Program-made: the position numbers and the translations under genes
DNA from: Ruminiclostridium josui JCM 17888
Lineage (GTDB): Bacteria; Bacillota; Clostridia; Acetivibrionales; DSM-1351
Assembly: GCF_000526495.1 (NCBI RefSeq)
Contig: NZ_JAGE01000001.1
Span: forward strand, 1,362,001 to 1,426,000
DNA length: 64,000 nucleotides
Direction of reading: 5' to 3'
The notes under the pieces: generated by a model
Database searches by the model: none
The model's input: the letters and a program-made list of their open reading frames with translations, nothing else
What the model was told of the DNA's origin: nothing
Part shown: positions 22,141 to 42,615 of the stretch, piece by piece
How positions within the stretch are numbered: position 1 is the stretch's first letter
Layout of the letters: every line of letters begins with the position of its first letter

Positions 22141-25130
22141 AAAACCGTTCCACTCTGTTTATATTAAAACGCATTGTATAAAACCCGCTATCATCAGATT
22201 CGCTTTGATTTACATTCCACTCTGTTTATATTAAAACTGCGACTTCACACTCAACAGTAACGTCAATAGTTTATTTACATTCCACTCTGTTTATATTAAA
22301 ACTTGTGCCGTATATACTGCTTACATCAAAGCTTATATTAATTTACATTCCACTCTGTTTATATTAAAACTATCAACCATACCTTTAACTGCTATTGTTT
22401 GCGGATATTTACATTCCACTCTGTTTATATTAAAACACCGTGCATTTTGTTATGTCGAGCTCGACAACCTGAATTTACATTCCACTCTGTTTATATTAAA
22501 ACGTAATACCCACAAGGTCGCTGAAGGTCACATTAAAATTTACATTCCACTCTGTTTATATTAAAACAAATAAGCCTATACCTACAAAAAAAGAGAACCT
22601 TGTATTTACATTCCACTCTGTTTATATTAAAACGTACAGTAAAAACAGACGCTTTGGCGGCTCTTGCGGCATTTACATTCCACTCTGTTTATATTAAAAC
22701 GCTCGTACAGACGGGCAATATGTTTATTATGATGTATTTACATTCCACTCTGTTTATATTAAAACTTAAGCTGACGGAGGTTGTTATGATTTATTTGTAT
22801 AGATTTACATTCCACTCTGTTTATATTAAAACTTGATTATCCCAAAATGTCTATACCACCTAAATTATTTACATTCCACTCTGTTTATATTAAAACTCAG
22901 GCTCTCCAATAATCAAATAAAAGTTATATTATTTACATTCCACTCTGTTTATATTAAAACGAGGCCGTTTTGGCCCCAGTCGTTTTACGCTTTCAGCATT
23001 TACATTCCACTCTGTTTATATTAAAACTTAATATGTTCAATATTCTTAGTTATTTCGTTCGTATTTACATTCCACTCTGTTTATATTAAAACATAGTTTC
23101 ATCAATATCTTCTATAGATAATTCAGTATTTACATTCCACTCTGTTTATATTAAAACGTGCATTTTTTGCAGCAGTAGCAGCGGTTTGTACTTTATTTAC
23201 ATTCCACTCTGTTTATATTAAAACTCCAGTCTTTTTGACAATTCTAATATTGCTATTTCATTTACATTCCACTCTGTTTATATTAAAACCAACGTATTTA
23301 AAAACGGGACTAAGATACATACAGAAATTTACATTCCACTCTGTTTATATTAAAACAATGATAGACAGATAATATATTCTTGTTGTTATAGTATTTACAT
23401 TCCACTCTGTTTATATTAAAACCTAAATGCGGACCCATTCATCTTAAATTGTAAAAAATTTACATTCCACTCTGTTTATATTAAAACCGCTGACTATCTT
23501 ACTGAATTTATTGTTAAACCTGATTTACATTCCACTCTGTTTATATTAAAACTCAATATTACAGGCGTTAGTCCTGTATTTTTGTATGATTTACATTCCA
23601 CTCTGTTTATATTAAAACGTTTCATAGTATCAATAATAGTCTTTTCAACCTTCATTTACATTCCACTCTGTTTATATTAAAACTTACACCACCATAACTT
23701 GTAGTTACTTGTCTTGTGGATTTACATTCCACTCTGTTTATATTAAAACAGCGTTATTCCCATTATTTACCCATTCACTTATTACATTTACATTCCACTC
23801 TGTTTATATTAAAACTTACCATCCTCCATTCCAAAGTTAGTGACTTCGATATTTACATTCCACTCTGTTTATATTAAAACCAACCGAAAACTTTTTCTTA
23901 GTCGCCCTAGTCGGCAAATTTACATTCCACTCTGTTTATATTAAAACTCAAATTAAGGGTGGCTTATTGCTATCCTTTTTTTGTATTTACATTCCACTCT
24001 GTTTATATTAAAACTCCGTCTTAATTATCTCATCGAAGAATTACTTAACAATTTACATTCCACTCTGTTTATATTAAAACATAATGCAACAGCACCACCA
24101 AGAGCACCCGCACCCAATTTACATTCCACTCTGTTTATATTAAAACACAATGATTTTATACAATATTTTCTGTCTGTGAGCATTTACATTCCACTCTGTT
24201 TATATTAAAACTCAAGAAACATGAATTATATATCGAATCAGCTAAAAATTTACATTCCACTCTGTTTATATTAAAACAATATATAAGCATAGTAATTAAT
24301 AAAATAATTTAGATTTACATTCCACTCTGTTTATATTAAAACGTAAATGCTTCATGATTTATATCTGTTTGTAATTCATTTACATTCCACTCTGTTTATA
24401 TTAAAACTTGAGGCTTTACGCTTAGTTTATGAACAAAATAAATTTACATTCCACTCTGTTTATATTAAAACGAAGTGTGATATCTTATGAGAGTACATAA
24501 CTATTCCAATTTACATTCCACTCTGTTTATATTAAAACTTGTCCCCTAATTCACCAGATACGAACCAATTCGCATTTACATTCCACTCTGTTTATATTAA
24601 AACGAGGGACATATAGATTTACCAGCTTCAGCTGGTGTAATTTACATTCCACTCTGTTTATATTAAAACATTATGCAAGACAGAATCATAAGCTCGGTAA
24701 AGAATTTACATTCCACTCTGTTTATATTAAAACGATGGAATATTATTTTAAATGAGATAAATTTTAGGATTTACATTCCACTCTGTTTATATTAAAACTT
24801 ATTTCCCGTGTGAAAGCCCCTCTTATTCATTAAGTATTTACATTCCACTCTGTTTATATTAAAACGTACTTATATTCATATTGATTATAGGATTCAGCAT
24901 TATTTACATTCCACTCTGTTTATATTAAAACATAAAACTCCACGTAACAGCAACTATAATTTAGTTCAATTTACATTCCACTCTGTTTATATTAAAACTA
25001 ATATATAAGAATTTTTATTATTTATTTGTATTTTATTTACATTCCACTCTGTTTATATTAAAACACATAGACAACGAGAGCGACGGACACAAAAAGGTGT
25101 ATTTACATTCCACTCTGTTTATATTAAAAC
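22141..25130 (-). CRISPR. CRISPR array, leader-distal part (46 repeats)
   Basis: Forty-six 30-bp repeats counted individually, starting GTTTTAATATAAACAGAG and ending GGAATGTAAAT in the transcribed (minus) sense, with 34-38-nt spacers. The repeat at 22141-22170 has a degraded 3' end (transcribed sense), as expected of the oldest, trailer-end copy. That, the cas2-proximal leader at the other end, and the ATGTAAAT 5' handle all indicate transcription from right to left. The final 9 nt (25131-25139) are a truncated spacer cut by an insertion sequence. Same array as 29091-32953. Confidence 0.98.
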
Positions 25131-29090: not shown

Positions 29091-32000
29091 GTTTATATTA
29101 AAACTTACATTCATCACTGTAATTATAGATTTTTATTAGCTTATTTACATTCCACTCTGTTTATATTAAAACTAGGTTCTAAGTCATATTCAATTTCACA
29201 TACTGCATTTACATTCCACTCTGTTTATATTAAAACACTAGGTTCTAAGTCATATTCAATTTCACATACTGCATTTACATTCCACTCTGTTTATATTAAA
29301 ACGGTGGACATATATTTTTTATGTCAGGATTCAATTTCATTTACATTCCACTCTGTTTATATTAAAACATGAGCAGATTTCAAGTTATTGTAGGGCTGTA
29401 TTATTATTTACATTCCACTCTGTTTATATTAAAACTCAATCAAATTTAGCAAAAAAAGTCGGTGTAACCCGATTTACATTCCACTCTGTTTATATTAAAA
29501 CACTATCCGTTCCCGGGTTAACCTCAACAAATATGTATTTACATTCCACTCTGTTTATATTAAAACCTACGGCACAGGTCAAAGGCAATTATCAATAAAA
29601 TAATTTACATTCCACTCTGTTTATATTAAAACGATTTAACTTTAGATAAATGTTTTGTTGTTAAAAAATTTACATTCCACTCTGTTTATATTAAAACCCT
29701 TTCTTACCGACCATTTTCCAACGTTCGTTTTCTTATTTACATTCCACTCTGTTTATATTAAAACTTAAGTACACTGTCCCTGATTGCTTCCTTTTGTTCT
29801 ATTTACATTCCACTCTGTTTATATTAAAACACACCCTCTTTCAATGTCTGCAATAGCCTTTAATATATTTACATTCCACTCTGTTTATATTAAAACGCTG
29901 TTGGAGTTTGGATTGAGTAGACCACCGCAAAGTATTTACATTCCACTCTGTTTATATTAAAACTTCCTCCTTAAATAATAATTATAATATTTGCTTAAAT
30001 ATTTACATTCCACTCTGTTTATATTAAAACAATACTGATGTACAAAGTTTCATGGGTACTTTAAATATTTACATTCCACTCTGTTTATATTAAAACGAAC
30101 CCCCTTGTCCCACTTGTTACCAAATATTATATGAATTTACATTCCACTCTGTTTATATTAAAACGTAAAATAACAATAGATTTTGATAAATTTGAGACGA
30201 TTTACATTCCACTCTGTTTATATTAAAACAGAATATCAATGTGAGGCACGCAGACGAATGAAAGCAATTTACATTCCACTCTGTTTATATTAAAACGAAG
30301 AATTGATACGTAAAAAGCCTTTTAGGTTATTTAATTTACATTCCACTCTGTTTATATTAAAACTAATTACACCAACCTTAATACTTGAAAATTCTTTCAT
30401 ATTTACATTCCACTCTGTTTATATTAAAACAGCAATGTTTGATATGTCTATTATCCCGTCATGGTCTATTTACATTCCACTCTGTTTATATTAAAACATC
30501 TTCTTTTTCATCCATAATTATCAAGTCCCTTCTGGATTTACATTCCACTCTGTTTATATTAAAACATTTGTCAATTGTACTGCTCATTGCATTTATTGTT
30601 TTAATTTACATTCCACTCTGTTTATATTAAAACGTAGAGGAAGGTGTAAAATTATGATTTATTTATATTGATTTACATTCCACTCTGTTTATATTAAAAC
30701 ATTTACAGCGAAAACAGCCTTTCAAATTTTAAATTTATTTACATTCCACTCTGTTTATATTAAAACTCTGCTAATTATTCATTTGAAGAATTTTGTTCAG
30801 AGTTATTTACATTCCACTCTGTTTATATTAAAACGATTCTGGTGATATTTGCGAATGTCAAGAAGATGATAATTTACATTCCACTCTGTTTATATTAAAA
30901 CTTAATATGTTCATACATTTATAGTTGTCAGGCATGGGGATTTACATTCCACTCTGTTTATATTAAAACTGGTGTTTATGTCGCAAGTGAGAATGATGCA
31001 TGTAGAAATTTACATTCCACTCTGTTTATATTAAAACTGATTACGGTCCAAATTATTATAATGCAAAATTGCATTTACATTCCACTCTGTTTATATTAAA
31101 ACGCAGGTAAACAATGCAGATGTTCAGACATTTATGGGTATTTACATTCCACTCTGTTTATATTAAAACCGCCGGTGACAGAGTAATCGCTATACCTGAC
31201 GTATATTTACATTCCACTCTGTTTATATTAAAACTTATGTACTTTAAGACGTACATAACTGCTTTTATTATTTACATTCCACTCTGTTTATATTAAAACC
31301 ATATCATCCGCATTTTCATTGTATAGTATTTAGTATTTACATTCCACTCTGTTTATATTAAAACCTATGCTATATGGCATAAAATGGGGTTTTGTAACAT
31401 TTACATTCCACTCTGTTTATATTAAAACTTTTTCTCGTGATGATTATGAAGAATTTGCAAGGAGAAAATTTACATTCCACTCTGTTTATATTAAAACGAT
31501 GAAATGAAGCGTTTTGCATATTATGCAAAGAAATAATTTACATTCCACTCTGTTTATATTAAAACTTAATATTTTGAGTTATGCAAGGTCTTTTGGTATA
31601 TTTACATTCCACTCTGTTTATATTAAAACCCAAAAGATTCTCATAAGCTAGTGTTGTCTTTGAAGTATTTACATTCCACTCTGTTTATATTAAAACAACT
31701 GTATTAACTCAGAACATTATGAGCATATGTCAAAAATTTACATTCCACTCTGTTTATATTAAAACTTCATAATTATTAAAATCAAAGCCACTCGTAAGAG
31801 ATTTACATTCCACTCTGTTTATATTAAAACGAAATACTCAAGACTGTAACTGTTGACGGTGTTGCTCTATTTACATTCCACTCTGTTTATATTAAAACCG
31901 TAAAAAATGGTACGGACGTAATTAATTTATAAGGATTTACATTCCACTCTGTTTATATTAAAACCCCACGAATCCCTATCTGACCTTTTAAAATCTCGAT

Positions 32001-32953
32001 TTACATTCCACTCTGTTTATATTAAAACAGGGACAAAAGTCTGATGATGTATCTCAAAAAGATATTTACATTCCACTCTGTTTATATTAAAACAAATTTT
32101 AGGAGTTGAGACTAAAGGTAAACAGGATAATTTACATTCCACTCTGTTTATATTAAAACTTGTGGATGGTGCAGCCTTGGGAGCAGGTGCAATCGGATTT
32201 ACATTCCACTCTGTTTATATTAAAACTGAAGCGCAAGAATTTGTTGATGAGATTTATAGTGTATTTACATTCCACTCTGTTTATATTAAAACTTAGGTCT
32301 TACAAGGAAGTTTCCTTTTTCTATACCAATTTACATTCCACTCTGTTTATATTAAAACGTCATACATCGTAAAGTAAATAATTACAAAATTGGAATTTAC
32401 ATTCCACTCTGTTTATATTAAAACTGAGATGGATTCGTGCAATAGATTAAGTGTAAGGGATTTACATTCCACTCTGTTTATATTAAAACTGTTTCGCGTA
32501 GGCTTGTTTGTTGCGGTAATACAAATTTACATTCCACTCTGTTTATATTAAAACGACTTGCAGGCGGGTCCCCTGCCTTTTGCAACTAATATTTACATTC
32601 CACTCTGTTTATATTAAAACTCTTGGAGATTCCTGCTCCGCCACTAAAGCAGTAACCGATTTACATTCCACTCTGTTTATATTAAAACCTAGAAAAGAAC
32701 TAGCAAAAGAGTTCTCAAAAGCTAGATTTACATTCCACTCTGTTTATATTAAAACAGATACAACTGTCATTTTTGCCTGACCACCGAAACTATTTACATT
32801 CCACTCTGTTTATATTAAAACATACCCTAAGATATCTGTACCCCTGTATTACTATACAATTTACATTCCACTCTGTTTATATTAAAACTCAAAATATTTA
32901 ATTAACTCATCTCTTTGTTCTTTATTTACATTCCACTCTGTTTATATTAAAAC
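29091..32953 (-). CRISPR. CRISPR array, leader-proximal part (58 repeats + 1 partial)
   Basis: Begins with the last 14 bases of a repeat (29091-29104), cut by the IS3 element, then 58 complete 30-bp repeats identical to the other part. Spacers are 34-39 nt. Leader-adjacent repeat is 32924-32953, so the newest spacers are near 32.9 kb. Two neighbouring spacers (29173-29206, 29237-29272) are the same sequence apart from one AC. One spacer (29765-29800) matches the endolysin gene in this window. The whole array has 104 complete repeats and about 103 complete spacers. Confidence 0.98.
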
Positions 32954-33138: not shown

Positions 33139-33417
33139 TTAAAAGAAGTTTGATGTTTTGTCATCTTCCTTTCCCCAAAATTCTTTCTGCATCCATCTTT
33201 CCTCTCTACTTTTGAAAATAATTACAGAATCTCTTTCTTTTCTTATATGCTTTTTAAGTTCCAGCTTTAGCTGTTGTAACAAAGCTGGAGTGATATCTCC
33301 TTCAAACACAGATTTCTGCACATGTGTCAGGTATTTTTTGCATATTTTGAAAATATTCCGTGATGCTTTTGCTCCGTTTTCATCCACTTCTACGTCATAT
33401 ATCAGAACTATATACAT
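33139..33417 (-). CDS. cas2: CRISPR integration protein Cas2
   Basis: 92 residues from MYIVLIYDVEVDENGAKASR; GGTGGTG precedes this ATG, and the upstream in-frame start inside the cas1 end is less likely. Ferredoxin-like fold: the first strand with the conserved Asp (VLIYDV), RNIFKICKKYLTHVQKSVFEG, and SVIIFKSRE. Cas2 forms the central dimer of the Cas1-Cas2 integrase that inserts new spacers at the leader. Last gene of the operon, directly followed by the leader. Confidence 0.96.
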   Translation of the reverse strand: MYIVLIYDVEVDENGAKASRNIFKICKKYLTHVQKSVFEGDITPALLQQLKLELKKHIRKERDSVIIFKSREERWMQKEFWGKEDDKTSNFF

Positions 33418-33419
33418 AA

Positions 33420-34412
33420 TCACCACCAAATTTTAAACCCTTCATATTCCTTATCACCCATTAGATGTTTTATAAGCTTATAACATTCCAAACGAATTAA
33501 GTGTCTGTATGAGACATTTCTTCCTAACTCCTTATGTTTTATGGTTCTGTTCATACTTTCATCGTATTCCATCAATATTTTCTTTCTTCCAGTATCTTTA
33601 AGATAAAAGTAATTGGAATCCTTCTCAAAATCCTTTTCCGTTATCATATTTCTATTCAGTAAGGAAAATATCAGCCTGTCTCCTATTAATGGCTTAAAAA
33701 TTTCAGAAATATCAAGGCAGAGAGAAAATCTTCGCTCACCAGGACTGTGTAAATAGCTAACTGTAGGATTTAACTGGGTCACATATATTTCAGATAAACA
33801 ACTTGTATATATCAACGAATTTACAAATGAAATAAGCGTATTAACCATATTGTCAGGCGGTCTTTTAACCCTTTTTTCAAAATCAACTTCCTGCTTAATA
33901 ATACTTGTCCAACATTCATAATACACTTTTCGTATACTGCCTTCCACACCCATTAAAGACTTAATATCCCCGGCACTTTCTATTCCATTTCTTAAATTCT
34001 TAATTTCATTTATAGTGTTTTCTAAATCACGATTCCTTTCATTATAATATCTAATATTTCTTAAAATATTATAGCTGGCAGCCTCAATAAATGCTTTCGC
34101 AATTTTAAGACGTTTGCTGTCTTCTGAATAATGCATTACCTGTTCCACTAAGAGTTTCCCTGAAACACTTGTCTCCTTCGGGAAAAAGCTACCCGTATAA
34201 AAGCCATAGAAATTAAAAATATGTATAGGAATAGACAACTGCCCGGCATAATTCAAAGCTTTGGTATTCAAAGAGACTTCCCCAAAAAGATAGATATCCC
34301 TAGTCATATTTACTTTTATATCCTTGAAGTTGCCGTCAGGTGCAGTCATTCTTAGAACATTATCCTTCCGCTTTAATTCCCCGTCGGAAAATAAATAAAA
34401 ACTTTCTGACAT
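33420..34412 (-). CDS. cas1: CRISPR integrase Cas1 (type I-B)
   Basis: 330 residues from MSESFYLFSDGELKRKDN; GGAGGGG precedes this ATG, and the one 24 bp upstream lacks a site. N-terminal beta domain followed by the all-helical catalytic domain. The metal-binding residues are expected as E in the GVEGSIRKVYYE region (~154), H in YLHSPGERRFSLCLDISEIF (~220) and D/E following it. Motif SGKLLVEQVMHYSEDSKRL is typical of the Cas1b group. It starts 11 bp after cas4. Confidence 0.97.
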   Translation of the reverse strand: MSESFYLFSDGELKRKDNVLRMTAPDGNFKDIKVNMTRDIYLFGEVSLNTKALNYAGQLSIPIHIFNFYGFYTGSFFPKETSVSGKLLVEQVMHYSEDSKRLKIAKAFIEAASYNILRNIRYYNERNRDLENTINEIKNLRNGIESAGDIKSLMGVEGSIRKVYYECWTSIIKQEVDFEKRVKRPPDNMVNTLISFVNSLIYTSCLSEIYVTQLNPTVSYLHSPGERRFSLCLDISEIFKPLIGDRLIFSLLNRNMITEKDFEKDSNYFYLKDTGRKKILMEYDESMNRTIKHKELGRNVSYRHLIRLECYKLIKHLMGDKEYEGFKIWW

Positions 34413-34423
34413 CTTTCCCCTCC

Positions 34424-34912
34424 TTAAATGTAGCAAAATTCATAGTATGCACAAGCTCTGCATATCTTCGAATCAATAACTTCAGGGCTTTTTTCTTGAA
34501 TAACAATTTTCTCAATACTATGGAGGATTTCCTCTATTTCCTTCTCATCCTGTTTTGTGAGCAAAACTTCTTTTCTTTGCTTTATTTTTGGATAATCGAG
34601 GACGCCTTTTTCAATTTTTATTCCCCTTTGTCTAAGAAAGTATATATAATACTTTACCTGCCACATGGAAGCCTCTTCTATGCTTTTACTTTTTTTGACC
34701 TCATGCAGAACCTTCCAGTCCTTTATAAAGTCAACATTAACCGTTTCATCTATTAGAACCTGCTTGTCCTCCCTTCCATAGCTACTTTCATCAATGAGCT
34801 TTCCCAGAAGCACATTTTCATTTTCCTGCTCCAGAGTAATGTTATTGACAAAGTACCACAGCTTTCTTTGGCAAACAAAATAGTAATAAAACATAGTTCC
34901 TGTAATTCTCAA
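34424..34912 (-). CDS. cas4: CRISPR-associated exonuclease Cas4
   Basis: 162 residues. The likely start is TTG at 34912, 8 nt after GGAGG, giving (M)RITGTMFYYYFVCQRK; a GTG nine bases earlier is less well placed. The RecB-like nuclease and Fe-S features are visible: FVCQRKLWYFVNN with the first Cys, GVLDYPKIKQRKEVLLT, the QVKYYIYFL helix and a C-terminal cluster CRACAYYEFC. Cas4 trims prespacers and fixes PAM-dependent orientation. It lies between cas3 and cas1, as usual for I-B. Confidence 0.95.
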   Translation of the reverse strand: MRITGTMFYYYFVCQRKLWYFVNNITLEQENENVLLGKLIDESSYGREDKQVLIDETVNVDFIKDWKVLHEVKKSKSIEEASMWQVKYYIYFLRQRGIKIEKGVLDYPKIKQRKEVLLTKQDEKEIEEILHSIEKIVIQEKSPEVIDSKICRACAYYEFCYI

Positions 34913-34930
34913 ACATATCACCTCCCTATA

Positions 34931-37177
34931 TCAGAACATTCTGCTTTCAGCATCCCGGAATTCCTGTTTCTGTGTATTTTCAAAGCTGATTCCCAATTCA
35001 TCAGTATAATCTGCATCCACAATCACAATTTCCTCTGCTCTGCTAATTTTCAGTTTAAAGCTTTTGGTTTGTTCAGCAAGTCTGCTGTTTACAGGCACCA
35101 TTAAATCACGCAATCTATCTCGTGCCTTTATCTTTGTATTAATAATCTGTGATTTATCATTAAGAATTTCTATTTCTGTTTGTATACTTTCTTCATTTTC
35201 CTTGTAAATCCTCAAAGGAATAACTAAAACCTGGTCTATATCTCTGAACATTTCATTTACATCCTGCTTGTTAAGCTCATATTCAGAAATTGATTTAATG
35301 TACTCTATAGTTCTTTTTATTTCAGAATAATAATTTTCCAGTTTTTCAGAAGTGTATGTATTTTCAATCATTTTTATTTTATCGTCTTCTGAAAGAACTC
35401 CATCCTTGGTAAGAGCCTCTTTAGACAAATTATGAACCTGTGGGTCTATAACCGAATTTATTCCTACCCCGCTGCATTTTCTACTTCCTCCTGTAAATAC
35501 AAAACAGTTATAGTCCACATCAAGAAGTCTGTGACGATAGCACCTCCCCATTCTCTGGAATAGTCCGTTCAAATCTGATAATTCTGTGAAAAGCAAATCA
35601 AAATCTATATCCAGTGAGGCTTCTACCAACTGTGTGGTAACCCATATTCCTGATTCATTGCTTCCTTTACTTCCGGTCTTCAATATGCAATTTTCTTTTT
35701 CTGTTCGATGACAGCGTATAAATCCGCTATGGAGTAAGTGTATATCATTCTTGCAATCTTCCGGTAAAATTCCTTTAAGCTTTGCATAAACCTCTTTTGC
35801 CATTTTTATTGTGTTGCATATTACAAGCACTTTGTTTTTGTTATATGCCTTTGATATTTGCTCAATACTTTCATTGTCGTTTATAGAGGCTTCTATTCTT
35901 TTCAGGCTGTGGCGTATTAAACTATTGGTAAATACCCGGGGTATTTCAAACTCTATACCCTCTTCTTCAAGAAGATTAAGTATCAGTTGGGGAAGAGTGG
36001 CAGTCATAATTGCAAACTTCCCACCCATTTTAGTAATATATTTTAGTCCCAAAACAAGATATGCAACAAGTTCATGAGAATACATCTGTATTTCATCAAT
36101 GATTACTTTGGAATATGACAAAGTAGCAAGCTTTGGTTCAAAACCTTTATATCTGAAAACAAAGTCAAAAATCTGATCTAACGTACACACAGTCAGGGGA
36201 AGTGATAATTGCCTTGTTCTGGTGTAATATGTTTCAAAATCAATTTCTTTTTCACCTTCAGCCTGTTCGGAATAAATCTTCAATGTGTCTGAATGAAGCA
36301 AGGCAACCCTCTCGTCAAATTTTTCAGGTACAATATTTTCTATAATACGTTTGTAAATAGCATTAATAGCACTTTTTAGAGGTAATGTAAAAAATCCTTT
36401 GCTGTTACCCAACCATAACAAACCTGCTTCTGTTTTTCCCATTCCTGTCTGTGCAATAACTATAACATTTTTATCTTGTTGTTTTATCATATACTTCTGT
36501 AAATCATTCCATTGAGTTTCTAAATTTTTTGTTTGCCATTTTTTTAAGAGATCATTCATTGATTCTATCAAAAAATCGTTAGGATTTTCTACTATTATTT
36601 CCGCACTAGCGGCATAATCCAGTCTATTCAGAAGTCCCTTCAACATTATATATTTAAAGAAGTAATCACCGTCTTTTGATTCGTAAAATCTCTGTCCTTT
36701 GTCGAAAAAATCAATATCAAATCTAGGTTTAAAGTATCTTGTTGGAAGTGCCAAATAGTTGTATTTGGGGAAAACACTTTTAAGAGTTTCGATTTCATTG
36801 TAAATCTCATCCATTTCAAAATCCATATCTCTTTCATGGTGATATGCAACTGCATGAAATAGCAAGCCAATATCTTTATCCGAATATCCCTTATCTTCCA
36901 AATAATCTACATCAATAAAACCAAGACTGAGAACCCCGTGTGGTAATCCTGTAGTGCTCCCTTTCCCGTGGACTCTATTCTGAAATCGAAAATTCATTTT
37001 CCCCATATCATGGTATATACATGCCAGACGAAGAAGTTCCCAATCTGTTTTCAGATTGGGATACATCTTTTTAAGAATATCAAGGTTAACTAACAAATCA
37101 TCTGTATGCCATTGAATATCTTTACGTCTAGGTCTTGTCTTTGCGATAAATTTTTCGTCTAATGTCCTGCTGTCCAT
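34931..37177 (-). CDS. cas3: CRISPR helicase-nuclease Cas3 (HD-DExH)
   Basis: 748 residues. N-terminal HD nuclease: WHTDDLLVNL and LACIYHDMGKMNFRFQNRV, then LLFHAVAYHHERD. SF2 helicase: Walker A IAQTGMGKTEAGLLWL (~245), KVIIDEIQMYSHEL (DExH, ~365), MTATLPQLIL (motif III), VLVICNTIKMAKEVY and the motif VI region GLFQRMGRCYRHR (~535). Cas3 is recruited by target-bound Cascade to unwind and degrade DNA 3' to 5'. No residue loss is evident, so interference should be functional. Confidence 0.97.
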   Translation of the reverse strand: MDSRTLDEKFIAKTRPRRKDIQWHTDDLLVNLDILKKMYPNLKTDWELLRLACIYHDMGKMNFRFQNRVHGKGSTTGLPHGVLSLGFIDVDYLEDKGYSDKDIGLLFHAVAYHHERDMDFEMDEIYNEIETLKSVFPKYNYLALPTRYFKPRFDIDFFDKGQRFYESKDGDYFFKYIMLKGLLNRLDYAASAEIIVENPNDFLIESMNDLLKKWQTKNLETQWNDLQKYMIKQQDKNVIVIAQTGMGKTEAGLLWLGNSKGFFTLPLKSAINAIYKRIIENIVPEKFDERVALLHSDTLKIYSEQAEGEKEIDFETYYTRTRQLSLPLTVCTLDQIFDFVFRYKGFEPKLATLSYSKVIIDEIQMYSHELVAYLVLGLKYITKMGGKFAIMTATLPQLILNLLEEEGIEFEIPRVFTNSLIRHSLKRIEASINDNESIEQISKAYNKNKVLVICNTIKMAKEVYAKLKGILPEDCKNDIHLLHSGFIRCHRTEKENCILKTGSKGSNESGIWVTTQLVEASLDIDFDLLFTELSDLNGLFQRMGRCYRHRLLDVDYNCFVFTGGSRKCSGVGINSVIDPQVHNLSKEALTKDGVLSEDDKIKMIENTYTSEKLENYYSEIKRTIEYIKSISEYELNKQDVNEMFRDIDQVLVIPLRIYKENEESIQTEIEILNDKSQIINTKIKARDRLRDLMVPVNSRLAEQTKSFKLKISRAEEIVIVDADYTDELGISFENTQKQEFRDAESRMF

Positions 37178-37204
37178 ATTAGTCTCCTTTATGCAAAATA
37201 TAGT

Positions 37205-38817
<1,613 letters not shown>

Positions 38818-38825
<8 letters not shown>

Positions 38826-40545
38826 TTTCATTCTCCTCCTTGTTGTCTGTTTTATTATCTATATCCTGTCTTGTACCGTTTAATCCAGAAACAAATGCAT
38901 ATCCGATTGTTTCAAAAACACCGTCTTCCTCCCTAAGTGCTTCTGTAATTATGTTTGGTACCTCCTTGCCAACATACAAATAGCAGTTAATTACAACGTC
39001 CATGAACATGTTACAGTTACCAGTTTTAAGAGCATTAAGGAGCCTATAGCTTATACCCGGGATTTTACCTGTTTTAGGGTCTTTTTCAAGATAAGCATTT
39101 CTTAGCTTTTCTCCCGCTTCTTTTGCACTATTTATATAATAAAAGCCCTTTCCCATTTTCTCCATCCCTCCTAAATTTTGAATTAATCTGAAATTTATTT
39201 TTAGAATATCAATTATGTTTCCCATATGATAAAAACCGTCTTTGGGAGATGCTGTTTTATAGTGAAGAAGTTTGAATATTAAAAGAAACTGGTTTCTATT
39301 GTTGAAAATATTCTCCAGCACCTGTTCGTATATGCTGTAGCTGTCTTTTCCTTCCTTGTACCGTGTGTTTATAAGTTTTCCAATTTCCTTTTCAAACTCT
39401 TTTATAAGTTCTATTGTTGCTTCAGGCAGCAAATTGAACTTATAACTTTCGTTTTCCCATCGTACTACCTGAACATCCGCCAACTCATATTTCTGTCTTG
39501 AGAGGTGTTGCTTTTTCATAGCCTCTAAAAGTGCCCAATAGATTTTGCGTGAGTTCTGCTCTTTGCCAATTCCGGTTACATTAGCCCGAACATTACTATT
39601 AACCTTTAGATTATTTTCCATATTCATATTTGCATTTATATACAAACCTGTATCTCCAACATATGAAAATCCTGCCGGCAGACATGAATATATCAGTTTA
39701 CATACAGGACATAATGCTATGTCATTAACAAAGTTCCATACATGAGATGGTTTCCTTGCCACATCAAACCCGGACTGGTTTATAAAACCCATATCATTGT
39801 TGAAATCCTTAATTGGGGAGCCGCAGGTAAAGCACTGATATTTGAATTTGTTTTTGTCTGATTTCAAATAATCAATAGCACAGTTGACAAAATATGTTCT
39901 GTAGTCCTCATAAACATCCTTTATCTTTGTCTGCTTATTTAAAAAACTCACTCCATTCCAACCATTTCTTATGATTGTATAAATTACATTCTTTGCTCCG
40001 ATAATACGTCTTCCTTCATTACTTCCGCAATACCCTATAATTTCTTCAAGAATATCAAATTGCTTTTTTATGCTTTCAATAATATTAGGTTTTTCTTTTT
40101 CAAAAGCATTTTCATCTTTGGGTTCTTTTATCTTTTGTAGTCGTTTTTCCAATTCCTCAATACGCTGAGCAGTTCCCATCAACTCAAAAGCTGACGTTAT
40201 ACTTTTACTGGTCAAATACCTTTTTGCTATATCTCCTATATATGCATTAATACCTTTAAGACCCTGAAGATTGAGATTTTTGAAATCATTTTCTCTGTAA
40301 TGCTCTATTGTTTCTTTAAAGGAAATTATTCTATACCATGGCAAAGTTTTTTCATATGTATCTATGAAGTATTTAAAATACTTTTCTTCAAAATTCTCAA
40401 GACAATGTACAGGAATTTCCGCAGTACACCCGTAAAACTTGACATTTTCTTTTCCTACAATATTTATAAACCCGGTAATTGACGCATTCCACATCCAATC
40501 TCCTAGTGTCAGTCTTATGACTTCATTATCATAGATATCTTCCAA
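38818..40545 (-). CDS. cas8: Cascade large subunit Cas8 (Cst1/Cas8b1 type)
   Basis: 575 residues with a TTG start 8-9 nt after GGAGGTG. The N-terminal LTLGDWMWNASITGFINI segment and the zinc-finger region CFTCGSPI...CPVCKLIYSCLP (~240-292) identify the Cst1 class. Cas8 recognises the PAM and helps recruit Cas3. Residues ~330-575 are mostly helical. Two genes of this operon (cas8 and cas4) begin with TTG. Confidence 0.93.
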
Positions 40546-40570
40546 TACTTTTCACCTCCATTTCCGAATA

Positions 40571-41302
40571 TCATATTAACTCAAGCATTCCGAAGCAAAG
40601 TCCCCTCTTTGAACCTAATCCCCGCTGATAAAGATATTGAAGAAGATATTGTTCACCTTCCATAGACAGTACGCCAAGTGAGGCTTGAATTTTCAACTCA
40701 TATGACTTTACGATTACCTTTTTCATTTTAATAAAATCAATTTTAAGCATTTTGATATCATGACTTATGTCTCTTGAAAATTTGCCTTCCAACTCGGTTT
40801 GTAGATTCCTTTTGAGTATTTCGCCAGCATTTTCATCCTCAAAGGTGCAAAACCAGTCCTTCCCCGTCTCCTTATCATGATCACGTATAACAATAGGAGA
40901 TAATGTATTGAAAACAGCTTTGCCTTGAGTAATAATTTTTTCTTTTTCATTTGTGATTTTAACTACTCTCAAAGAATTATCCTTTGACAGCTTGTACCAC
41001 TTAAACTTCTGGGAAGATAGTGCATTATATAATTGAATTCCTGTGTATACATCTGGAGTTGATAAATTAATTATTATTTTCTTACTATTAACCCAAATGT
41101 TATCTCTATCAATGATTGTTTCAGGTACAAAGTATACCGACATGGTAAATTCCTTATTTGAATTCTTTCCTTTGCCGTACAGCTCTTCAAAAAAATCTTT
41201 ATTGCTTTTCTCAATACAGGACTTTAAATAACTAACAATCTTTCGTCTGTAATCAATATTGAGTCTATTATTCTCCAATTCGCATGTAAAATGAAATCTC
41301 AT
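40571..41302 (-). CDS. cas6: crRNA-processing endoribonuclease Cas6
   Basis: 243 residues, tandem ferredoxin-like folds. The C-terminal glycine-rich loop of Cas6 is plain: YLYQRGLGSKRGLCFGMLEL. Other conserved regions: MRFHFTCELENNRLNIDYR and FNTLSPIVIRD. It cuts each repeat to leave an 8-nt 5' handle (here AUGUAAAU). First gene of the operon, 124 nt after the predicted transcription start; that leader contains a repeat-like sequence that Cas6 itself could cut. Confidence 0.95.
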   Translation of the reverse strand: MRFHFTCELENNRLNIDYRRKIVSYLKSCIEKSNKDFFEELYGKGKNSNKEFTMSVYFVPETIIDRDNIWVNSKKIIINLSTPDVYTGIQLYNALSSQKFKWYKLSKDNSLRVVKITNEKEKIITQGKAVFNTLSPIVIRDHDKETGKDWFCTFEDENAGEILKRNLQTELEGKFSRDISHDIKMLKIDFIKMKKVIVKSYELKIQASLGVLSMEGEQYLLQYLYQRGLGSKRGLCFGMLELI

Positions 41303-41342
41303 AAATTCACCTCCTTTGTATATTCATTTATTCCATTATGGA

Positions 41343-41407
41343 TATATTAAATAAGACTTAATTTTGGTTAGTAATAAATTTTACATTCCATAGTGTTATA
41401 TTAATTA
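41343..41407 (-). ncRNA. Candidate crRNA-like autorepressor (CreR/CreA type) in the cas leader
   Basis: On the minus strand 41407-41379 aligns to the array repeat at 22 of 30 positions with one gap, keeping AATATAA, TGGAATGTAAA and the handle as ATGTAAAA. Next comes a spacer-like stretch (41378-41343) beginning TTTATTACTAACCAA. Its first 11 bases match exactly a plus-strand site at 41414-41424 that is flanked by CCA and overlaps the cas promoter. Position 12 mismatches, 13-15 match, and the rest does not. Known CreR/CreA RNAs have this form: a degenerate repeat plus a short seed that directs Cascade to bind without cleavage. No RNA evidence is available. The same bases also form a perfect 12-bp inverted repeat (TTAGTAATAAAT/ATTTATTACTAA), so a plain leader hairpin is the rival explanation. 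Confidence 0.5.
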
Positions 41408-41410
41408 TTT

Positions 41411-41449
41411 CCATTTATTACTAATCAAGTACCATATTAACATATATGT
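41411..41449 (+). promoter_or_regulatory. PAM-flanked partial target of the crRNA-like element
   Basis: CCA at 41411-41413 followed by TTTATTACTAA (41414-41424) then TCAAG. A 36-bp protospacer here covers the cas transcription start and the -10 box (41434-41439). CCA fits the PAMs known for related clostridial I-B systems. Confidence 0.5.
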
Positions 41450-41462
41450 GATTTAATGTCAA
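41434..41462 (-). promoter_or_regulatory. Promoter of the cas operon
   Basis: Minus-strand TTGACA (41457-41462), a 17-bp spacer and TAATAT (41434-41439). Predicted start near 41427, giving a 124-nt leader before cas6. Confidence 0.8.
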
Positions 41463-41476
41463 TCTTTTCCATAAAT

Positions 41477-41505
41477 AAAGCCCCGTTTATCAAAACGGGG
41501 CTTTA
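41477..41505. terminator. GC-rich hairpin upstream of the cas promoter
   Basis: Perfect 12-bp stem AAAGCCCCGTTT/AAACGGGGCTTT. On the minus strand it is followed by ATTTATGG, a weak U-tract. It may shield the cas operon from upstream transcription. The 147 bases from 41506 to 41652 hold no convincing gene. Confidence 0.6.
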
Positions 41506-41652
41506 CAAAAAATAATATAATTAAGAGGAAAAAACAAAATGAAAAAAAGTTTACGTATTTATATTAACAGCACAATATTAATAAATAATTTATAAACGAT
41601 GAACATTTTGTAAACTTAATAATTTTATCTTTGTGAACTAATATGGATGTTA

Positions 41653-41690
41653 AAAAATCTTCCAAAGTTAAACCTTGGAAGATTTCTATT
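41653..41690 (-). terminator. Terminator after the PQ-loop gene
   Basis: Minus-strand stem AAATCTTCCAA/TTGGAAGATTT followed by TTTAAC. Confidence 0.8.
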
Positions 41691-41714
41691 TATAGCAAAA
41701 TTTTATATAATTAC

Positions 41715-41999
41715 TTATTTATTTGCTCCAGCTTCAATCCTTTTATTTCTAAAATATAAGCCAATATCTGTACTAACCATAATGACATTTGGGATGTAGA
41801 ACCAGAATGCCAGATTCAAATTGTTTGATATTAGCTTTGATGCTATACCGCAAACATATCCAAATGCTATAAAGAATAAGAATAAAATGCTCTTGCCTTT
41901 TGTTGAGCGTGATTTATATGAGCGCACAATCGACAGCGGCCATGACACACCAAACCCAATAATCATCATAGTTTCTAATACTTCAGCTAACAATTCCAT
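41715..41999 (-). CDS. Small PQ-loop (SemiSWEET-like) membrane protein
   Basis: 94 residues, three membrane helices (MMIIGFGVSWPLSIVRS, ILFLFFIAFGYVCGIAS, LAFWFYIPNVIMVSTDIGL). The WPLSIVRSYKSRSTKGKS segment resembles the PQ-loop of half-transporters that dimerise to move sugars or other small solutes. It is 49 bp downstream of fumB-type gene on the same strand, so it may be the last gene of that operon; a link to dicarboxylate or sugar export is only a guess. SemiSWEETs are usually 85-95 residues, which fits. Confidence 0.65.
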   Translation of the reverse strand: MELLAEVLETMMIIGFGVSWPLSIVRSYKSRSTKGKSILFLFFIAFGYVCGIASKLISNNLNLAFWFYIPNVIMVSTDIGLYFRNKRIEAGANK

Positions 42000-42048
42000 T
42001 TTGTATTCCCCTTTTTATTTATAAAGTTTACTACTGGCAAATACCTTC

Positions 42049-42615
42049 TCATTTTTGGGAAGCTTTTGCAGCAAGGTAGGCCTTTCGCCCTTCTTCATAT
42101 AGGTTTTTGCCTTCACTGTCAATAATTACAACCAAAGGCATTTCTTCCACATAGAGCTTTCTCAACGCTTCTGGGCCTAAGTCTTCATATGCAATCAGTT
42201 CTGAGCTTTTGATACATTTAGCAAGTAACGCTCCTGCCCCACCAATAGCTCCAAAATAAACTCCGCTGTACTTTTTCATAGCATCCACTACTTCTGGCAG
42301 TCTGTCACCTTTTCCAATCATTCCTCTAGCTCCCACTGACATCATAGTAGGTGCATATGCATCCATACGCCCACTAGTTGTTGGCCCAGCAGAACCTATT
42401 ATCTGACCAGGTTTTGCTGGAGTTGGACCTACATAATATAATGTAGCATCTTTCGGATCAAATGGCAAATCCTGCCCATTTGCAAGGGCTTCACACATTC
42501 TCTTATGGCCAGCATCCCTGGAAGTATATATTTCACCAGTCAAATAGACTGTATCACCCGCATGTAAGGTTTTTGCGAGTTCTTCTGTTAATGGGAGTTG
42601 AATTTTACGTTCCAT
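42049..42615 (-). CDS. Class I fumarate hydratase, beta (C-terminal) subunit
   Basis: 188 residues: LHAGDTVYLTGEIYTSRDAGHKR split over the N-terminus, YVGPTPAKPGQIIGSAGPTT, SGRMDAYAPTMMS, MIGKGD, GAIGGAGALLAKCI and the C-terminal VVIIDSEGKNLYEEG. This is the beta-half of the oxygen-sensitive [4Fe-4S] fumarase/tartrate dehydratase class, which interconverts malate and fumarate. It begins 1 bp after the alpha subunit. Tartrate specificity cannot be excluded, but the adjacent fumarate reductase favours fumarate. Confidence 0.93.
   Translation of the reverse strand: MERKIQLPLTEELAKTLHAGDTVYLTGEIYTSRDAGHKRMCEALANGQDLPFDPKDATLYYVGPTPAKPGQIIGSAGPTTSGRMDAYAPTMMSVGARGMIGKGDRLPEVVDAMKKYSGVYFGAIGGAGALLAKCIKSSELIAYEDLGPEALRKLYVEEMPLVVIIDSEGKNLYEEGRKAYLAAKASQK

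Follow-up and report, generated by a model that had tools for sequence, protein, structure and literature searches.

Could the leader of a type I-B cas operon hold a guide that directs the operon's own effector to the operon's own promoter? The cas locus of Ruminiclostridium josui JCM 17888 raises this question: the original prediction had read a degenerate CRISPR repeat in its cas leader, and a short match beside a CCA over the cas promoter, as parts of a crRNA-like guide. We analysed the window (the whole stretch of 64,000 nt that contains this locus) together with the regions upstream of cas6 in related bacteria. We conclude, with a probability of about 0.88, that the leader encodes a CreR-type autorepressor guide for the type I-B cas operon in which it is embedded. 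Below, the josui locus is that of the window, and G- and L-numbers denote comparison genomes and loci, G001 being L019 and G010 being L020.

A mini-array in the cas leader

The operon lies on the minus strand. Its first gene, cas6 (40571..41302, starting at 41302), was identified by a TIGR01877 match and is followed by cas8b1, cas7, cas5, cas3, cas4, cas1 and cas2 (33139..40545, minus strand). The type I-B (Cas8b1/Cst1) gene set is therefore complete, with cas8b1/cst1 and cas7/cst2 in their places; Cas8b1 was confirmed also in G001 (L019), L022, L259, L260 and L261. A CRISPR array with the repeat GTTTTAATATAAACAGAGTGGAATGTAAAT adjoins the operon (29143..32953, minus strand), and a second array (22141..25130, minus strand) has the same repeat, its end copy at 22141 carrying 5 changes. 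Together the two arrays contain 103 perfect 30-nt repeats, and the nearer one holds 57 spacers of 34-39 nt each. An Rfam search of 40500-42300 returned four weak matches, none at the gathering score.

Ahead of cas6, the leader holds a pair of pseudo-repeats, numbered 1 and 2 in the direction of transcription, with a 25-nt spacer between them. Pseudo-repeat 1 (41379..41407, minus strand) is the degenerate repeat of the original prediction, with 22/30 matches to the array repeat and one gap. Its last 8 nt (41386-41379, minus strand) form the 5′ handle ATGTAAAA, the counterpart of ATGTAAAT in the array repeat; this handle ends in A, not T, so that one extra base beside the PAM is able to pair, as in a hairpin. 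The guide spacer (41354..41378, minus strand) begins TTTATTACTAACCAA. Pseudo-repeat 2 (41324..41353, minus strand) has 22 matches and a 2-nt gap and carries TCCA-TAA-TGGA. This second repeat and the shortness of the spacer were absent from the original prediction. With lengths counted to the GGA cut sites, and assuming that Cas6 cuts after GGA in both pseudo-repeats, the predicted mature CreR RNA would comprise 8 + 25 + 22 = 55 nt (41332..41386, minus strand), and the mini-arrays of relatives have a spacing similar to this plan. By eye, the cas6 Shine-Dalgarno sequence lies at about 41317-41308 (minus strand), downstream of the expected cut in pseudo-repeat 2. An 18-codon frame with two ATA codons and no visible ribosome site (41414-41358) overlaps the mini-array.

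The likeness of both elements to the array repeat stood out when both strands of the window were scanned with the whole repeat, gaps allowed. Pseudo-repeat 1 was the top match outside the arrays (score 13) and pseudo-repeat 2 the second best (score 12); the latter was matched from 41353 to 41326, ending 53 nt downstream of pseudo-repeat 1, and the third-best site scored 11. When the leader was dinucleotide-shuffled 3,000 times, the first score was reached in 0.5% of shuffles, the second-best score in 0.03%, and both jointly in none. Across the whole josui genome the mini-array pattern was found at a single site, the cas leader. Ectopic degenerate repeats flanking a spacer-like guide, as in CreR loci, are present in this leader.

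A CCN-flanked target over the cas promoter

The cas operon promoter, TTGACA-17-TAATAT (41434..41462, minus strand), matches at 10/12 positions and has a TG before the second hexamer; its spacing places the predicted start site near 41427 (minus strand). A promoter scan of the region called 6 promoter-like sites against 5.4 expected from shuffling, and the site at 41462-41434 was the sole one at 10/12, the other five being 9/12 matches. Weaker promoter-like sites lie upstream at 41614-41585 and could be additional sources of the guide. Immediately upstream of the cas promoter lies a hairpin rich in GC with TTTATTT after it (41477-41504), which the terminator scan did not call; at the equivalent place in L232 a terminator was called.

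The guide's seed, TTTATTACTAA, recurs on the plus strand at 41414-41424, immediately after the PAM CCA (41411..41413, plus strand). From 41414 the promoter strand reads TTTATTACTAATCAA, and alignment bore out the predicted pattern of 11 matches to the guide, a mismatch at base 12 and matches at 13-15. Unlike the usual pair, in which base 6 mismatches, the josui pair is matched at base 6. The protospacer had been said to cover the start site and the -10 box; its 25 nt (41414..41438, plus strand) take in the predicted start site and most, not all, of the -10 box.

When the 515 nt upstream were shuffled 2,000 times, a run of 13, ignoring bases 6 and 12, never occurred, and the weaker event of a run of at least 8 beside CC occurred in 8/2,000. 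Against the same 515 nt, the best of 101 array spacers reached a run of 10. When all sense-strand 17-mers near the leader were compared with 1 kb of sequence, with neither handle nor PAM required, the josui pair ranked first, as did the equivalent pair of G001.

To derive the PAM, spacers of the nearer array, the only one used as query, were matched to stretches of same-genus genomes, and 12 spacers had matches of at least 78%. A CCN lay upstream of the protospacer for 8/11 spacers (CCA five times, CCT twice, CCC once), the other three having TCG, CGG and ATT, the ATT one with a poor seed. The spacer at 29765-29800 was set aside from these 11 because it matches repeated sequences, with CCN at 5/7 distinct sites. 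In collections of phages and plasmids, no protospacer matched the array convincingly. Judged from the matches in same-genus genomes, the array spacers of this system use CCN as their PAM. Related requirements are published for other type I-B systems, with CCA and CCT, broadened to YCN, in C. difficile (PMC8406132) and an essential double C in A. woodii (PMC10328091). In sequence terms, seed-type partial complementarity to the cognate cas promoter and a PAM beside the target, both hallmarks of CreR, are found at the josui locus.

Two features of the arrays were noted on the way. Spacer 29765-29800 resembles a sequence repeated across several same-genus genomes and also the josui sites G000:C1:1418500, 3291268 and 458542; site 3291268 has a CCA flank and two mismatches to the spacer in the first 8 bases, and the spacer is possibly a tolerated self-match. 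Eight different spacers from the window arrays match a filamentous-phage-like element in a same-genus genome (L074, G002:C1:1915500-1935400), whose copies lie about 7.3 kb apart and whose content includes a Zot-like protein, a replication initiator, an RstB-like protein and an IS transposase.

Guide-target pairs in related cas loci

Related loci were collected by searching for Cas6 at four levels, from the genus through order and class to the phylum, taking upstream regions of up to 1.5 kb, four of them shorter. The first set comprised 36 regions: the josui locus, G001 and G010 (counted as L019 and L020), 7 from the order and 26 from the class. The order search had given 17 non-josui Cas6 loci (L002-L018), among which L012-L018 and the truncated L004 stand outside the counts. 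All 26 class loci and all 27 phylum loci were counted, and weaker matches without a locus were left outside. Each 17-mer following a TGTAAAN handle was compared with all sites of the region it came from, leaving bases 6 and 12 out of account.

The 36 regions contained 96 handles, which gave 10 runs of at least 13, all 10 flanked by CC. As a control, 59 permutations of the handle, with 4,378 occurrences in the same regions, also gave 10 such runs, none of them CC-flanked. Pairing handles with other loci (1,260 pairings) yielded 21 runs of at least 13, 4 of them beside CC, equivalent to 0.11 per 36 loci. L005, L037, L039 and L040 look homologous by eye, so that about seven of the ten loci are independent. 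The 27 phylum regions, with 74 handles, added 2 runs of at least 13, of which that of L235 is CC-flanked and that of L241 is not; permuted handles in these regions gave 253 runs, 1 with CC. The L241 match (run 15) lies 1.5 kb from cas6 and was counted as a miss.

With L232 (run 9), L032 (run 10), L233 and L234 added, a pair was present at 15/63 loci; in the upstream regions of the remaining 48/63, no such pair was found by the handle, run and PAM tests. An L238 match (run 9, CCT) proved to be an ordinary array spacer and was excluded from the 15. Bases 1-5 and 7-10 match in all 15 loci, as forced by the selection of pairs, and the matches at base 6 and base 12 are at chance level, these positions being neither required nor excluded. 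From relative to relative the seeds differ and the targets differ correspondingly, while the handle and the CCN PAM are kept. Seed-target pairs thus recur in related cas loci, as CreR would require.

The creR layout varies among these loci. L005, L037, L039 and L040 have a same-strand guide upstream of the cas promoter, and L030, L032 and L044 a further layout with opposite-strand guides. G010, whose Cas6 is 68% identical, keeps a pseudo-repeat 2 but has neither the promoter nor the pseudo-repeat 1 of G001, which indicates that the device is dispensable; the array repeats of G010 (L020) vary. G002 (L021) retains only a C-terminal remnant of Cas6 and stray repeats.

A Cas6 scan of the genome contig collection found no relatives. 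A pattern search of the same contigs returned at least 116 sites, with a run of at least 14 beside CC in at least 4 (L120, L163, L170 and L208); L177, among the matches listed, has a run of 15 without CC inside a tandem repeat. A wider mini-array pattern matched in 14/391 genomes, and 8 gave matches away from Cas6. None of these 8 had a target run of at least 9; one, L088, lies inside a 145-aa frame and has a run of 8 beside CCA.

At seven loci (josui, G001, L041, L232, L233, L234 and L235) the mini-array lies directly ahead of cas6, and each has its own distinct guide and a CCN-flanked target. Their Cas6 proteins are respectively 100, 69, 33, 45, 43, 40 and 33% identical to that of the window. 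A forward promoter was called before the mini-array in L232 (10/12), L234 (9), L235 (11), L041 (11) and G001 (11); the promoter scan called none in the right direction in L233. L232 copies the josui order: the promoter comes first, its start site overlain by the target, then the two pseudo-repeats with the spacer between them, the Shine-Dalgarno sequence and cas6; guide and target stand at -74/-111 against -76/-112 in josui. The place of the target varies: in josui, L232 and L234 it lies over the start site, G001 and L235 have it a short way downstream of that site, and in L041 it is next to the -35 box on the upstream side. Pseudo-repeat 2 shares 23 identical nucleotides with the same genome's array repeat in L041 and 14 in L235, confirming these elements as repeats. 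In G001 the target promoter is about 0.65 kb upstream of cas6, and a 110-aa frame lies between promoter and guide. This frame (L019:5897-6229) has a weak, sub-threshold helix-turn-helix match and is possibly a regulator or a guide-controlled cargo gene.

We then scanned these loci blind to the handle but conditioned on the PAM. The expected pair came first in 7/7 (with a tie in L232), and a handle-like octamer preceded each. Its score was reached by 1/150 shuffles for josui, 0/60 for G001, 0/150 for both L041 and L235, 2/150 for L233 and 1/150 for L234; L233 and L234 had been spotted by eye before testing. L232 alone was non-significant (31/150), because base 11 also mismatches. Ten comparison loci, a non-random sample chosen as lacking a CC-flanked pair in the earlier scans, showed no run above 8.

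These data bear on three other explanations. The leader could be a dead remnant, a mini-array of ectopic repeats whose processing has been lost. Both pseudo-repeats are degenerate and G010 lacks part of the device, as this explanation would have it, but in josui nothing seems broken in the seed, PAM, handle or spacer length, and distantly related species share the layout with seeds of their own and targets to fit, which drift would erase. We regard a dead remnant as improbable.

Slightly less probable still is a simple 5′ mRNA hairpin, formed by the identical bases, that stabilises the cas message or controls its translation, the repeat likeness being incidental. This rival was raised with the original prediction, and its 12-bp stem, around pseudo-repeat 1, is indeed able to form; yet shuffled versions of the leader fold just as well (z 0.05). 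In relatives it is the handle and the CCN PAM that are kept, not hairpin pairing. A hairpin or plain duplication would match bases 6 and 12, which are matched in only 4/15 and 3/15 loci, respectively. Moreover, guide and target lie on the same strand in 6/15 loci (L030, L032, L041, L044, L052 and L235), where a hairpin is impossible. The proposed comparison of related cas loci for seed-target pairs, PAM and repeat likeness has thus come out for a guide and against the hairpin.

Least probable of all, and very much so, is a CreTA- or CrePA-type module whose guide silences a toxin and not the cas genes: the 110-aa frame of G001 between target promoter and cas6, with its weak helix-turn-helix match, and the 18-codon frame with two ATA codons from 41414 in josui could be read in its favour, but no ribosome site is visible for the latter, the josui target promoter leads straight into cas6 with no toxin gene under it, and in L232 and L235 the promoter-to-cas6 gaps of about 140 and 205 nt hold the mini-array.

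A CreR-type guide for the cas operon remains the preferred reading. Against it weigh the final A of the josui handle, the match at base 6, the weaker promoter-like sites at 41614-41585, the result for L232, the varying target position, the incomplete device of G010 and the 48/63 regions in which no pair was found. That a seed match, a PAM and promoter overlap mark a CreR/CreA-like guide, as originally proposed, is supported by the shuffles, the CCN PAM and the relatives.

Proposed autorepression and known systems

For the window, transcription, Cas6 processing, Cascade binding and repression are projected from the sequence as follows. Transcription from near 41427 would produce a message with the mini-array before cas6. 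Cas6 would cut both pseudo-repeats, freeing a crRNA-like RNA of about 55 nt, and its cut at pseudo-repeat 2 would leave the message about 30 nt of leader with the Shine-Dalgarno sequence intact. Guide-loaded Cascade would then occupy 41414-41438 through the CCA-flanked seed, covering the start site and the -10 box and blocking initiation. With pairing that gives out at about base 15 and a spacer of just 25 nt, the guide would not be expected to let Cas3 cut the chromosome. Repression should limit itself, since no promoter stronger than the repressed one was seen for the guide, and it would relax once ordinary crRNAs or anti-CRISPRs occupy Cascade. Because the guide would be cut from the cas message, the loop would need no extra promoter or protein.

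The josui locus may well exemplify a class of cas operons whose leader doubles as a mini CRISPR array: Cas6 would cleave the message that encodes it, and the guide set free would silence the promoter of that message, the arrangement being kept across several families with species-specific seed and target. We lean towards such a class, with a confidence lowered because L233 has no called promoter and the L041 target lies beside the promoter.

If autorepression operates as proposed, a single promoter governs the levels of Cas protein and repressor alike, and the strength of repression reports how much Cascade ordinary crRNAs leave over. This amounts to a base-by-base prediction of how a bacterial type I-B system sets its level, with occupied Cascade freeing the promoter and idle Cascade shutting it. 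On the seven leader-embedded examples, which differ in seed, the rules for seed, PAM and handle can be tested in parallel, and where native I-B systems of this group are used for editing or silencing, cas levels would be expected to respond to added crRNAs.

Several known systems resemble the proposed one. The original CreR report, on cas-regulating RNAs of type I-B, I-E and V-A, is said to be that of Liu et al. 2023. Shmakov et al. 2023 reportedly surveyed stand-alone two-repeat mini-arrays partly complementary to cas promoters, with emphasis on cas8 promoters and a type I-F test case; these share with the josui device a two-repeat mini-array near cas genes that is aimed at a cas promoter. 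Workman et al. 2021 reportedly described tracr-L autoregulation of type II-A Cas9. There too an effector represses its own promoter through a short natural guide, but Cas9 is a single effector that works without Cas6, and its guide comes from a long tracrRNA, not from a pseudo-array in the cas message.

Short guides behave as the proposed mechanism would have it. In Haloarcula I-B a 24-nt spacer represses while interference and priming vanish (PMC10989794), and in Parageobacillus I-B repression without cutting is seen with guides no longer than 26 nt (PMC10551041). CreA of the CreTA modules shares two divergent pseudo-repeats, 8-nt and 22-nt handles, pairing at 1-5 and 7-11, a PAM and a promoter target; in H. 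hubeiense the creTA operon is transcribed from the targeted promoter (PMC8501985), a precedent for a guide made from its own target promoter. Unlike the josui device, at which no toxin was found, CreA is haloarchaeal and controls a toxin RNA.

The closest likeness is to CreR itself, and repression of type I-B, I-E and V-A cas genes by CreR RNAs is already in print: a crRNA-like RNA with limited complementarity to the cas promoter is described, through which the effector represses its own operon, and type I-B is named (PMC13131331, PMC12737573). CreR-type autorepression in type I-B is therefore known, and the mechanism is not new. Titles and abstract openings in the open literature, a set that does not extend to Liu et al. 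2023 and Shmakov et al. 2023, mentioned no operon repressed by a guide from within its own leader. What differs from CreR in the josui locus is that the guide sits in the 5′ leader of the targeted operon, where one promoter would make both message and guide; this leader-embedded layout is the unusual part and may be new.
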